From: Actinobacteria bacterium 13_1_40CM_66_12
Lineage (GTDB): Bacteria; Chloroflexota; Dormibacteria; Dormibacterales; Dormibacteraceae
NCBI GenBank assembly: GCA_001917895.1
Contig: MNEW01000012.1
Location: forward strand, 1-57,434
Direction of reading: 5' to 3'
DNA: 57,434 nucleotides
Of the stretch, positions 6,681 to 54,401 are shown one piece after another. The first letter of the stretch is position 1, and each line of letters starts with the position of its first letter. Under the pieces are notes generated by a model. That model made no database searches, was not told the DNA's origin, and saw only the letters and a program-made list of their open reading frames with translations. A program made the position numbers and the translations under genes.

Positions 6681-8806
6681 GCCGACCCCGTCGCGGTCAC
6701 GACCGATGGGCGCTGCAGGTCCGGAAGCACAGGCAAGTCCTCCGGGTATGGGTCGCTCGCATTCGGCTCTCGCATTCCGACCGAGTCGAGCAGTCCGCTG
6801 ATCTCATCGCCCACCAGCTCGCCTTGCGCGATGAGCGCCTCGGCGGCAAGGTCGATGGCTTCCTTGTTGACGTACATAAGACGCCAGTCGTCGATGTAGG
6901 CCGCGCCAAGCAGCTGTGCGACCGTGCGCCGGGCCATCGGGTTGTTGAGCACTGCACCCGACGGGGTCCCTTGCTCGTGGACGCCCTGCGTCACTTGAAC
7001 CACCGAGATGAGCTGCTCACCGATGTTCATCGCTTTGCGCGACATCTCGGGGTCGAGCTTGTCCGGTCCCATGCCTACGATGCCGACCATCCGGCTCGCG
7101 GTTGCGGTGGCCTGGATCAGGTCCATCGTCACTCCGGTGGTGTTTTCGCCGTAGAAGACGTGCTCGCACGCGAGAGATCCAAGTGACGCGCGGATGTCCG
7201 CGGCCAGCTGCGAGCGGAACTCCAACCATTCCTCCTCCATGGGCAGGGATTTGTGATAGCCGCCGATCTCTCCGATCTGGGGATTGGCTCGCCGGCGAAT
7301 CGACAGCCGGACGTGCGAGTGGTCCTTCTGGAAGAAATGCGATGCCACCGCGTGCCCAAGCTCGTGACGCGCAACCGCAATCTTGTCGCGCTCGGTGTAT
7401 TCGACTGGAATCGCGAGCCCGGCCTCCACGTTGCCCATCGCCTCGCGGATGTCCTTCCAGTAGAGAGCGTCGCGGCCGTCTTCGAATGCGTAGAGGAGCG
7501 CGAGGGACAGGACCTGCTCGATGTCGGCCGGCGAGTAGCCGTCCGTGATGCGAGCGAATTCCTCGCGCCGATCCGGAGTATCGAGGGCGGGGTCGTGCTG
7601 CTTCTTGTCGAAGTAGAGCGCCGCGATGTCCTTGCGGTCCTCGCGGTTCGGGAGACGGAACACGATCTGGCGTCCGAAGCGGCCCGGCCTGGTGAGGGCC
7701 TCGTCGAGGACAGAAGGTCTGTTGGTGGCGCCGATGAACAGCATGTTGTAGTTGGGTGCCTTGAGGGCGGGGATCCGCAACTGGATTCGAGTGCCGTTGA
7801 AAGCGATCACCCGGGGCAGGAAGAGCCCGTCGAGGGTGAGGTTCACGAGCCCTCGCAGCTGCCTGATGATCATGCCCGGGTTGTCGATGCCGTCCATCAG
7901 GACCAGCAGCATGTTCAACCCGAGCTGCCCGCCTCCGAACATCCCGCCCATGCCACCCATCGTCGGACCGGCCCCTCCGGTACCCGAGCGCTTCTGGCCC
8001 AGGGCATCGATCTCGTCGATGAACACGATGCAGCCGCCCCACACCTTCGCCTTCTTGCGCGCGGCCCGCACCATCAAATACACGCTGAGGGCGTCGATGC
8101 CGAGGAACATGCCGGCGAAGGATCCGCCGGCGGCGATGTAAATGGGAACGTGAAGCGTCGACGCGATGGCCTTGGCCAGCATCGTCTTGCCCGTGCCGGG
8201 AGGACCCACCATCAGCACACCCCGCTCGCGCTTGCCGCCGGCCTTGACGTAGAGCCGTCCGTGCTCGATCAGCCGGAGGATCCTGCGCATCTCGATGACG
8301 GCCCCCCTCTGGCCTCTGACGTCATCCATATTCACGCCGAAGTTCGCGTCGTCGGGGTTGATCATCGTCTTGCCGATGCGCGTGTAGATGTAGAAGGGTC
8401 CGAGGAAGAGCGCGAAGTTAGCCGCTAGCAAGAAGAGGATGTAGAGGAGGTTCGTGAGCCCGGCCACGATGGCTTGCGGAAGAGCGTCGAGCGCGTCCTG
8501 TGGCGCGAGGCCCGCCAGGTAATAGGACCCGGCGAAATAGATGATCGGTATCGCAGCCAAAAAGAGAGCGCGGCGCCAGAAGATGGCCCGATTCGTCTCC
8601 ACGGTTCGTGTGAGCGAGTCGCTCTCCGGGGACATGCGTTCCCGCAAGATCAGCGAGCGCCGGATCATGCTCAGAATTCCGCGGCACAGGAGCATCACGA
8701 GCAGCGCGTAGCCGAGCGAGTACCACGTGCCGAGCTGCAGGAAGATGGAGGCGAACGCGAACGCCGAGGCGCCGACGAAAAGCGTGAAGATCCAGAAGAT
8801 GATCAG
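6677..8806 (-). CDS. Divergent FtsH-like membrane AAA+ zinc protease
   Basis: About 709 residues. FtsH enzymes extract and degrade membrane proteins using ATP. Visible parts are Walker A GPPGTGKT, Walker B CIVFIDEID, the second region of homology ATNRPSVLDEALTRPGRFGR, the zinc motif HELGH (7352-7366) and the third-ligand segment TTGVTMDLIQATATASRM. Differences from FtsH are four hydrophobic helices instead of two, a pore loop reading MFLG, and an insert of about 70 residues rich in Gly and Met between Walker B and the SRH. Canonical starts (GTG 8698, ATG 8695) fall inside a hydrophobic helix. The frame is open to 8836, and CTG 8806, 9 nt after an AGGGAG, would give a full first helix. The upstream stop is in the same frame. 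Confidence 0.85.
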   Translation of the reverse strand: MIIFWIFTLFVGASAFAFASIFLQLGTWYSLGYALLVMLLCRGILSMIRRSLILRERMSPESDSLTRTVETNRAIFWRRALFLAAIPIIYFAGSYYLAGLAPQDALDALPQAIVAGLTNLLYILFLLAANFALFLGPFYIYTRIGKTMINPDDANFGVNMDDVRGQRGAVIEMRRILRLIEHGRLYVKAGGKRERGVLMVGPPGTGKTMLAKAIASTLHVPIYIAAGGSFAGMFLGIDALSVYLMVRAARKKAKVWGGCIVFIDEIDALGQKRSGTGGAGPTMGGMGGMFGGGQLGLNMLLVLMDGIDNPGMIIRQLRGLVNLTLDGLFLPRVIAFNGTRIQLRIPALKAPNYNMLFIGATNRPSVLDEALTRPGRFGRQIVFRLPNREDRKDIAALYFDKKQHDPALDTPDRREEFARITDGYSPADIEQVLSLALLYAFEDGRDALYWKDIREAMGNVEAGLAIPVEYTERDKIAVARHELGHAVASHFFQKDHSHVRLSIRRRANPQIGEIGGYHKSLPMEEEWLEFRSQLAADIRASLGSLACEHVFYGENTTGVTMDLIQATATASRMVGIVGMGPDKLDPEMSRKAMNIGEQLISVVQVTQGVHEQGTPSGAVLNNPMARRTVAQLLGAAYIDDWRLMYVNKEAIDLAAEALIAQGELVGDEISGLLDSVGMREPNASDPYPEDLPVLPDLQRPSVVTATGSA

Positions 8807-17100: not shown

Positions 17101-17874
17101 GTGCCTCTAGTCAGTAGGGTCGTCGCGCCCAATCCCGGTCCGTATACCGGACCGGGAACGAACACGTGGATCGTGGATGCCGGGCCGGTGGCAATCGTCA
17201 TCGACCCTGGTCCGGACGACGAGGAGCATCTCAACGCGATCGAGAAACGGTTGGGGTCGACCGCGGTCGGCGTCGTGCTGGTGACGCATTCGCATCCGGA
17301 TCACCTGCCGCTGGCGCAGCGCCTTGCAGAGCGGCACCACGCCTCGGTGAAGCGGTTTCCAGAGCTTGCTGACGGCGACGTGGTGCGGGTGGGCAACTTG
17401 AAGGTGACCGCGCTCCATACGCCGGGCCACAGTGCCGATCACCTGAGCTTCTGGCTCGACGAAGACCGTGTGCTCTTCACCGGCGACCTGGTGCTTGGAC
17501 GTGGCAGCTCTATGGTCACCTTTCCCGAGGGCGATGTCGCCGCCTACCTGCGCTCACTGGAGCGCCTCGAAGCGCTGCACCCCAGGATGCTTTTTCCCGG
17601 CCATTGGGACCCGGTCACCGACGCGATGGCGAAGCTCGAGGAGTACCGGACCCACAGGCTGGCTCGCGAGGCCCAGGTGCTGGCGGAGTTGAAGAAGCGC
17701 GGCCGTGGCACCGCGCCAGAGCTGACGCTCCGGGTCTATGGCACCGAGCTGGGCGGCGAGCTGTTGCGCGCGGCGGAGATGACGCTGCGCGCTCATCTCA
17801 AGAAGCTCATCGACGATCGAAAGGTGAAAGTGCGCACCGCGAAGGGCGAAGAGGTTTACGAGCGCTCGGTATGA
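17101..17874 (+). CDS. MBL-fold metallohydrolase (LACTB2-like)
   Basis: A 257-residue metallo-beta-lactamase-fold hydrolase, probably cytoplasmic. Metal ligands are visible: THSHPDHLP, the His in LHTPGHSADH, the Asp in LFTGDLVLG and the final His in LFPGHWDPV. The N-terminal PNPGPYTGPGTNTWIVD and the C-terminal winged-helix-like tail (from LAREAQVLAELKK to the end) match LACTB2-type enzymes, some of which are endoribonucleases. Other members act on glyoxal thioesters. The frame is open upstream to 17023, but conservation begins at GTG 17101. It is followed by repeat element copy A, whose first stem begins 2 nt after the stop. Confidence 0.85.
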   Translation: MPLVSRVVAPNPGPYTGPGTNTWIVDAGPVAIVIDPGPDDEEHLNAIEKRLGSTAVGVVLVTHSHPDHLPLAQRLAERHHASVKRFPELADGDVVRVGNLKVTALHTPGHSADHLSFWLDEDRVLFTGDLVLGRGSSMVTFPEGDVAAYLRSLERLEALHPRMLFPGHWDPVTDAMAKLEEYRTHRLAREAQVLAELKKRGRGTAPELTLRVYGTELGGELLRAAEMTLRAHLKKLIDDRKVKVRTAKGEEVYERSV

Positions 17875-17876
17875 AT

Positions 17877-17973
17877 ACGGCGGAAATCTGCGATTTCCGC
17901 CGTGGGCTCCTGGCCACGATGGGAGGCGGCTGGAAGCTGCACGCTGTGTGACGGCCGGGATAAACCCGGCCTA
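17877..17973 (+). repeat. Structured intergenic element, copy A
   Basis: First of three related elements (also 28402-28497 and 54294-54396). Stem 1 is a perfect 12-bp hairpin (17877-17888 with 17892-17903, loop TGC) starting 2 nt after the MBL stop. Then come CGTGG and GCTCCT, the conserved GGCCACG, and GGGAGGCG, which can pair with CTCC. Stem 3 is GGCCGGG (17953-17959), loop ATAAA, CCCGGCC (17965-17971). No U-run follows, so it is not a standard terminator. The rlmN promoter lies just downstream. Confidence 0.7.
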
Positions 17974-17994
17974 CGGGCCGCGCTTTGTCTGACG

Positions 17995-28371: not shown

Positions 28372-28401
28372 GTCTAGCTAGAATTCACCGCTCGTGAGAT
28401 T

Positions 28402-28497
28402 ACGGTCGAGGACTTCGTCCTCGCCCGTGGGCTCCTAACCACGTATGGAGGCGTCTGGATGGTGCACGCTGGGGACGGCCGGAGTAATCCGGCCTTA
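28402..28497 (+). repeat. Structured intergenic element, copy B
   Basis: Second copy of the element at 17877. Stem 1 pairs ACGG-CGAGGAC (28402-28413) with GTCCTCG-CCGT (28417-28428) across a TTC loop with one mismatch. The upper stem differs from copy A but is still paired. CGTGG, GCTCCT, CCACG and GGAGGCG are conserved. Stem 3 is GGCCGGA (28477-28483), loop GTAA, TCCGGCC (28488-28494), with one base pair exchanged relative to copy A. The rest of 28372-28548 holds only a TTGACA (28510-28515) and a purine-rich leader. Confidence 0.7.
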
Positions 28498-28548
28498 GAG
28501 CGTCGCATTTGACATTCTTTGAGAGATGAACGGGAGAGGTAGCCGCTC

Positions 28549-28779
28549 GTGAACTGGGCTTTCGTGCGGAGGGAGTGGGGGGCCGTAACGTTCGTGCTGA
28601 CGGTGATCGTCGGCATGGTCGTGGTCCCGCTTGCGCTCTACTTCACCAACCAGGGCCCCGCGCCGGTGGCCGTGCCGAACATCACCACTGCCAGCAGCCC
28701 TCGCGCCGCGAGCAGCGTCACGTCACCCTCGCCATCGCCGGCCACGACGCCCTCGCCGTCGCCGAGCCCGTCGAAATAG
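28549..28779 (+). CDS. 76-residue single-pass membrane protein with Ser/Pro tail
   Basis: A short membrane protein starting at GTG 28549. It has a basic-aromatic N-terminus (MNWAFVRREWGA), one hydrophobic helix (VTFVLTVIVGMVVVPLALYF), and an extracytoplasmic tail of low complexity ending in SPSPSPATTPSPSPSPSK. GGGAGAGG lies about 9 nt before the start. No family is recognised. The tail resembles cell-wall-spanning or glycosylated linkers. It lies just downstream of element copy B. Confidence 0.6.
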   Translation: MNWAFVRREWGAVTFVLTVIVGMVVVPLALYFTNQGPAPVAVPNITTASSPRAASSVTSPSPSPATTPSPSPSPSK

Positions 28780-54275: not shown

Positions 54276-54293
54276 GATTTCAGTGGAGCTTAA

Positions 54294-54396
54294 GGCCGGA
54301 TTTACTCCGGCCGTCCCCCAATCGCTGCCAAAGCGCCTCCCAGCGTGGCCGAGGAGAGGGGTGGGTTCCGCGGCGGGGGACATCTGTCCCCCCCGC
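54294..54396 (-). repeat. Structured intergenic element, copy C
   Basis: Third copy, read on the minus strand between the YVTN gene and the thioesterase. Stem 1 (54396 to about 54370) is a 13-bp G/C stem with one bulge and different sequence. The conserved CTCCT, GGCCACG and GGGAGGCG follow. Stem 3 is GGCCGGA (54312-54306), GTAAA, TCCGGCC (54300-54294). A TAAG follows, then TTG 54275. It begins 5 nt after the YVTN stop. The stretch between CTCC and stem 1 is longer than in copies A and B. Confidence 0.65.
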
Positions 54397-54401
54397 GATT
54401 T

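Follow-up and report, generated by a model that had tools for sequence, protein, structure and literature searches.

YPAL/RU-2, the 168-bp Yersinia palindromic sequence, is portrayed in the sections of PMC2229807 devoted to it as a small, gene-less and mobile element with internal rather than terminal inverted repeats, which is not A+T-rich and generates target duplications of variable length (3–26 bp). The same account, where it deals with the classical MITEs (RUP, Correia/NEMIS, and ERIC), describes them as short, gene-less, dispersed and mobile, mostly with terminal inverted repeats and TA ends. According to the relevant parts of PMC3733652, the GTAG and CGTC REPs and the BIMEs are dispersed palindromes at gene 3′ ends that sometimes supply a stop codon; they occupy this position in both tandem and convergent gene pairs, and the CGTC REPs are said to be without a dedicated transposase. 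Long direct repeats that vary between copies (8–514 bp) are reported in the corresponding passage of PMC2266710 for IS1549/IS1634, insertion sequences that encode a transposase and possess terminal inverted repeats.

The element analyzed here occurs three times (copies A, B, and C) in the window, i.e., the whole 57,434-nt stretch of Dormibacteraceae DNA under study, and its closest analogs are YPAL/RU-2 and the REP elements. With YPAL/RU-2 it shares the small size, the absence of genes, the mobility, the internal position of the inverted repeats, a composition that is not A+T-rich, and target duplications of variable length. However, it belongs to another phylum, its duplications reach at least 99 bp, and its right hairpin and conserved core do not figure in the YPAL/RU-2 description of that source, the comparison being one of descriptions and not of sequences. 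Like the MITEs, it is short, gene-less, dispersed and mobile and has target-site duplications, whereas neither terminal inverted repeats nor TA ends are found in its inserts. In addition, it resembles IS1549/IS1634 in its long direct repeats of variable length, but it has neither a transposase gene nor terminal inverted repeats, and an IS of the DDE_Tnp_1 type was rejected as general partner, since this transposase was found in just 2 of 12 carrier genomes.

An earlier note on this DNA had reported a repeat of about 100 nt at three places, and all three copies are indeed present there, within a few bases. The inserted DNA is longer than first described. Copy A is an insert of ~120 bp on the plus strand (about 17873–17992) between CGGTAT and CGTAG, with an MBL-fold hydrolase gene upstream and rlmN downstream, and the TGA stop codon of the upstream gene is provided by the element itself. 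Its stem 1 (P1, 17876–17904) reads TACGGCGGAAATC-TGC-GATTTCCGCCGTG and its stem 3 (P3, 17953–17971) reads GGCCGGGATAAACCCGGCC. Copy B is a 145-bp insert on the plus strand (28398–28542), preceded by a 90-aa gene that lies downstream of galU and followed by a 76-aa gene; no family was found for either. It contains P1 at 28401–28429 (TACGG-t-CGAGGAC-TTC-GTCCTCG-c-CCGTG) and P3 at 28477–28494 (GGCCGGAGTAATCCGGCC). Copy C lies on the minus strand at 54280–54397, between a YncE-like β-propeller gene and a hotdog thioesterase gene, with P1 at 54369–54397 (CGCGGGGGGGACAGATGTCCCCCGCCGCG, read from 54397 to 54369) and P3 with its GAC at 54295–54315; its outer limits are not fixed and no empty site was seen, the same site being filled in G001 (L084).

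The three copies have the core CTCC(T), CCACG, and GGAGGCG in common. As the earlier note had claimed, stem 1 differs in sequence from copy to copy and yet keeps its pairing, stem 3 exchanges G–C for A–T (at the last pair, between A and the copies B and C), and stem 1 starts just past the upstream stop codon, at an offset of about 1, 29, and 4 nt in A, B, and C, respectively. The stem-3 pattern matches the window four times against 0.19 expected, one match being the reverse strand of the copy B palindrome. The folds exceed what is expected of a chance palindrome: the z-scores are −3.08, −3.04, and −2.76 for A, B, and C, and only 2/200, 0/200, and 2/200 shuffles are at least as stable as the RNA fold of the respective copy.

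No Rfam family matches anywhere in the window at gathering thresholds, in line with the earlier reading. A lax search with copy A returned solely matches far under threshold, and a search of six related loci returned group II intron families at reverse transcriptase genes and nothing else. An exact pattern scan of species genomes yielded 16 stretches, eight of which hold the whole element including P3, all in MAGs titled Chloroflexi or Candidatus Dormibacteraeota. From these eight and the three window copies the model R1 was built; it gives the eight at least 70 bits and the other eight at most 20.5 bits, a difference that includes its training on the former.

The search of relatives with R1 revealed a dispersed family. 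The six genomes of the training loci contain 9–18 copies each (E up to 0.001), 11 more genomes contain 1–26 (E up to 1e-5), and 14 of 25 other genomes contain 2–20. In total, the element is carried by 31 of the 42 genomes of a single Chloroflexota order, with 1–26 copies each; the family of G345 comprises the same 42 genomes. Copies at contig ends make these numbers lower bounds: near-identical element arrays lie at contig ends in L138 (G006:C14) and L139 (G006:C86), and such arrays probably break assemblies. A scan of 400 genomes of the phylum, with strict filters and 11 candidates scored per genome, identified 15 carriers, all among the 23 sampled from the order, and the element in none of the 377 sampled Chloroflexota genomes outside it. 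Moreover, when one mismatch is allowed, eight genomes contain the P3 pattern 143 times but its reversed control not once. Two window sites, A and C, are also found among the carrier genomes. Spread by viruses was considered and rejected: seven viral stretches contain the core pattern, judged by eye to be chance matches because P3 is missing. A search of viral contigs for RlmN gave 14 stretches, none of which was confirmed.

Across the family, the element is about 120–150 bp long with no gene inside, and six inserts bounded by empty sites or repeats measure 120–148 bp. The P1 palindrome, highly variable in sequence between copies, lies near the left end; it is followed by the conserved core CTCCT..CCACG..GGAGGCG and the conserved right hairpin P3, GACGGCCGG-NNTRAA-CCGGCC. 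In all six delimited inserts no terminal inverted repeats beyond those of shuffles were found; the best case is copy B, where 62 of 500 shuffles score as high. Tandem arrays consist of head-to-tail units of about 119–165 bp, flanking words included. We found no earlier description of such an element in this clade in a limited literature search, and the repeats constitute an apparently undescribed family of small non-autonomous mobile elements.

The mobility of the element is seen at sites that are filled in some genomes and empty in others. The copy B region is without the element in all six close relatives (G001–G005 and G345). In the window, the insert is flanked by two copies of the 10-bp word CCGCTCGTGA, the left at 28388–28397 and the right at 28543–28552, the latter including the GTG (28549) with which the downstream 76-aa gene starts. 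Among the empty sites, those of G002, G345, and G005 have one intact copy of this word, that of G001 has it with one change, and in G003 and G004 it has diverged. In G418 and G405, an element sits directly after the stop codon, i.e., at a different point of the region, and these are apparently separate insertions. The point of copy B is without the element in G213, G033, G307, and G417 as well (G417 and G307 hold other sequence), and G273 has, by coordinates, two model matches in the region. Similarly, perfect 44-bp repeats lie on both sides of the L144 copy in G345, and this 44-bp word is single, without the element, in G002, G003, G004, and G005. Target duplications, which the earlier note had named as a sign of a mobile repeat, are present together with empty sites at both copy B (10 bp) and L144 (44 bp). 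Near the L144 site, a different short insertion that the model does not recognize lies within the 3′ end of the adjacent gene in L190 (G001:C52, match ends 1431/1501).

Site A is empty in G001, G033, and G085, where it reads CGGTATCGTAG, and filled in G345, G005, and G307 with junctions near-identical to those of the window copy; remnants of the element are found in G003 and G004, and many other relatives also lack it, with diverged sequence at the site. No target duplication is visible there. The shared junctions in distant genomes, combined with the intact empty site of G085, require either loss or repeated insertion; this and the lack of a visible duplication count against the mobile reading. 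Overall, the conclusion that the element is a mobile dispersed repeat is well supported.

We surveyed the flanks of 160 copies, 100 of the regions being fetched from a part of all matches in ten genomes. A hairpin is detectable in 159, and 94 single copies remained after tandem copies, weak P1 hairpins, and short or ambiguous flanks were dropped. Direct repeats scoring at least 12 flank 19 of these 94 copies, representing 13 site groups, against 0.47 expected when flanks are exchanged between loci, a control that still includes orthologous loci and is thereby raised. The repeats are 12 to at least 99 bp long; they end 0–11 nt before P1 in 17 of the 19 copies and begin 0–17 nt past the model end in 15. 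The repeat of L131 is distant from the element and probably reflects similarity of coding sequence. Two observations count against the mobile reading: no flanking repeat scoring at least 12 was found for the other 75 of the 94 single copies, and L124 has a perfect 72-bp repeat, whereas L167, apparently at the same site judging by shared private features, lacks one, and some repeats may thus be gained or lost once the element is in place. The repeated flank at L090 and L101 contains the 5′ half of a putative tRNA gene (GCGCCCGCTTAGCTCAATGGATAGAGCGCC), and it looks like the insertion duplicated part of this gene.

The element is located preferentially at gene 3′ ends. The gene pairs that flank it, called by a simple gene finder and with shared sites counted more than once, are tandem in 77, convergent in 43, and divergent in 10 cases (n = 130), as compared with 393, 82, and 111 pairs without the element (p 1.7e-7). 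P1 starts 0–9 nt past the stop codon of the co-directional gene in 41 of 74 cases, and in 58 of 97 the model ends −4 to 17 nt from that of the convergent gene. Element ends often bring stop codons, as at site A and at a convergent-gene site, where GTG-TAG became GTA-TGA judging by the left target copies. The depletion of divergent and enrichment of convergent pairs, and the proximity of both element ends to stop codons, are what a bidirectional terminator or transcript-end device would produce. However, neither P1 nor P3 in the window is a hairpin followed by a T run, and placement at gene ends is also expected from the survivorship of insertions, to which it is at least partly due; we therefore regard such a device as quite unlikely, although it may be a secondary role acquired after insertion. 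In a search for intrinsic terminators in the window, one weak match was obtained at A, coinciding with neither stem 1 nor the intact stem 3, and none at B or C. The copy in L155 breaks into the start of a pilin-like gene.

A cis-acting structured RNA (leader, riboswitch, or attenuator), or a small RNA gene in many copies to which the repeats are incidental, would account for the covariation in P1 and P3, for the stable folds, and for the sense orientation between co-directional genes that the earlier note had described. This orientation holds for the three window copies but not for the family, in which 34 copies between tandem genes are sense and 45 antisense (p 0.26). The use of either orientation at gene 3′ ends speaks against a strand-specific leader RNA, and a riboswitch or leader was rejected on the lack of orientation bias. 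Moreover, no constant class of neighboring gene was found among 74 site groups, whose flanking genes were not named individually, and close relatives have empty sites. We thus hold a structured RNA of this kind to be very improbable. Among the readings that the earlier note had left side by side, the mobile dispersed repeat is borne out by the empty sites and target duplications, whereas a strand-specific RNA or 3′-processing device and a terminator in the window are not. The choice it posed between an RNA family and a mobile repeat proves to be a false one, as the element is mobile and its hairpins are also kept by compensatory change.

The evidence for this upkeep comes from sites shared between genomes, of which three are the clearest groups and do not amount to a census. 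At site A (the window, G345, G005, and G307), 50 of 52 cells of P1 are paired and 6 of 13 pairs are changed on both sides; with right arms exchanged, the mean falls to 40.3 paired cells and the maximum to 41. The second site (G003, G004, and G345) has 36 of 36 cells paired and 7 of 12 pairs doubly changed, against 21–22 paired cells with exchanged arms. The third (seven genomes) is weak, with 79 of 84 cells paired and 5 of 12 pairs doubly changed and one exchange reaching 78. Its left target copy, which measures 44 bp in G085, spans 13 bp in G307, and the two have a substitution in common, which indicates one old insertion eroding beside a still-paired hairpin. More generally, 127 of 156 copies have a P1-like hairpin scoring at least 20, whereas shuffles reach this score in 13 and flanks in 16 cases out of 156 each. 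In an alignment of 132 distinct sequences fitted to the model, 98.4% of the P3 cells are paired and 35 show changes on both sides; for the CTCC/GGAG helix the paired fraction is 80.6%. The second (middle) CTCC/GGAG pair is unpaired in 66 of 130 sequences, which counts against the reading favored here, and RNAalifold on a 134-row alignment recovers P3 alone. The compensatory stem changes first noticed among the window copies are thereby substantiated by doubly changed pairs in P1 at shared sites and in P3, and the element combines mobility with upkeep of its structure at some sites.

For P1, an equivalent pattern could result if the template were switched from one arm to the other. The P1 arms of close relatives at the second site differ at 7 of 12 pairs with every cell paired, which is very fast for ordinary compensatory substitution, and a functionless mobile repeat whose compensatory changes stem from such switching, or from exchange between copies, is a possibility to be taken seriously, although we lean against it. 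P3 and the core keep their sequence besides their pairing, for which correction between arms alone is insufficient.

GTAG REPs, too, are located at gene ends and supply stop codons, according to the relevant part of PMC3733652, and in these respects the element would fit a REP/BIME-type repeat mobilized by a RAYT (Y1) transposase. However, the present element is about 120–150 bp long versus 20–40 bp, has target duplications, and forms head-to-tail arrays, and inspection of the listed copies by eye showed no GTAG or CGTC tag at the base of either P1 or P3. No Y1 transposase was found in any of 10 carrier genomes, drafts from which genes may be missing, whereas 5 of 14 controls were positive in the same search, and RAYT-driven movement was rejected on this ground. 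By the features tested the element is not a REP, and we consider this origin extremely unlikely. The same low probability applies to an attC-like integron recombination site carrying gene cassettes: such a site would sit right past stop codons and in tandem units of about 119–165 bp as observed, but the element takes either orientation relative to the adjacent gene, its two ends lack complementarity, and its flanking repeats are local target sequence in the cases read.

Reverse transcriptase was found in just 2 of 10 carriers, in both cases next to group II intron RNA. Introns of this type, together with their reverse transcriptase genes, lie at L184 (G345:C55) and L185 (G006:C37), the latter with a stop codon within the matched reverse transcriptase stretch. 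An origin of the element as a product of the group II introns whose reverse transcriptases were found in G345 and G006 was rejected.

The duplications, none seen at A, 10 bp at B and at least 99 bp elsewhere, are variable and come without terminal repeats, which points to two nicks in the target without a fixed spacing; YPAL/RU-2 and IS1549/IS1634 offer precedents for duplications of variable length. We propose that an enzyme acting in trans would recognize the folded strand (core and P3) and join it to a target cut at two such nicks, the gaps then being filled in. Unequal crossing-over of the duplicated targets may have produced the arrays, whose units include flanking words as this process would give. 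Copies at gene ends would persist, as no gene is harmed, and the hairpins would be kept because the paired element has a strand-independent use at gene ends, candidate uses being protection of transcript ends or a signal for supercoiling or replication. Taken as a whole, a new non-autonomous mobile family with this scheme of insertion and upkeep is, in our judgment, the likely explanation. A bolder version appears unlikely: a bacterial analog of SINEs, in which an undescribed kind of enzyme in this clade would copy a structured RNA, anchored by P3 at its 3′ end, into a nicked target whose second strand is cut at variable positions, leaving some copies 5′-truncated; the element would then be domesticated at gene ends with continual compensatory change. 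At L233, the right part of the element stands alone at a shared site, which either 5′ truncation or deletion would give.

Backed by empty sites, our analysis describes a family of mobile non-coding repeats in a clade represented here by draft genomes only. It brings together two traits rarely reported jointly, namely very variable duplications without terminal repeats and hairpins whose pairing at fixed sites is preserved through compensatory change. This upkeep makes it testable whether compensatory change in dispersed palindromes is due to a use of the paired form or to template switching from arm to arm. For intergenic elements in many copies, our results also serve as a warning that covariation is, by itself, no evidence of a riboswitch-like RNA.

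A longer variant of the element is present in G307, G085, and other genomes (L217–L236). It contains another palindrome, for example AGAAGGAACC..GGTTCCTTCT, and continues with CTCATCTTCC..GGATTTTCGAAT..TTACTCC before the usual core and P3. Examples are located on the minus strand of L224, near 2765 and 2918, and on the minus strand of L218, near 6899–7225.
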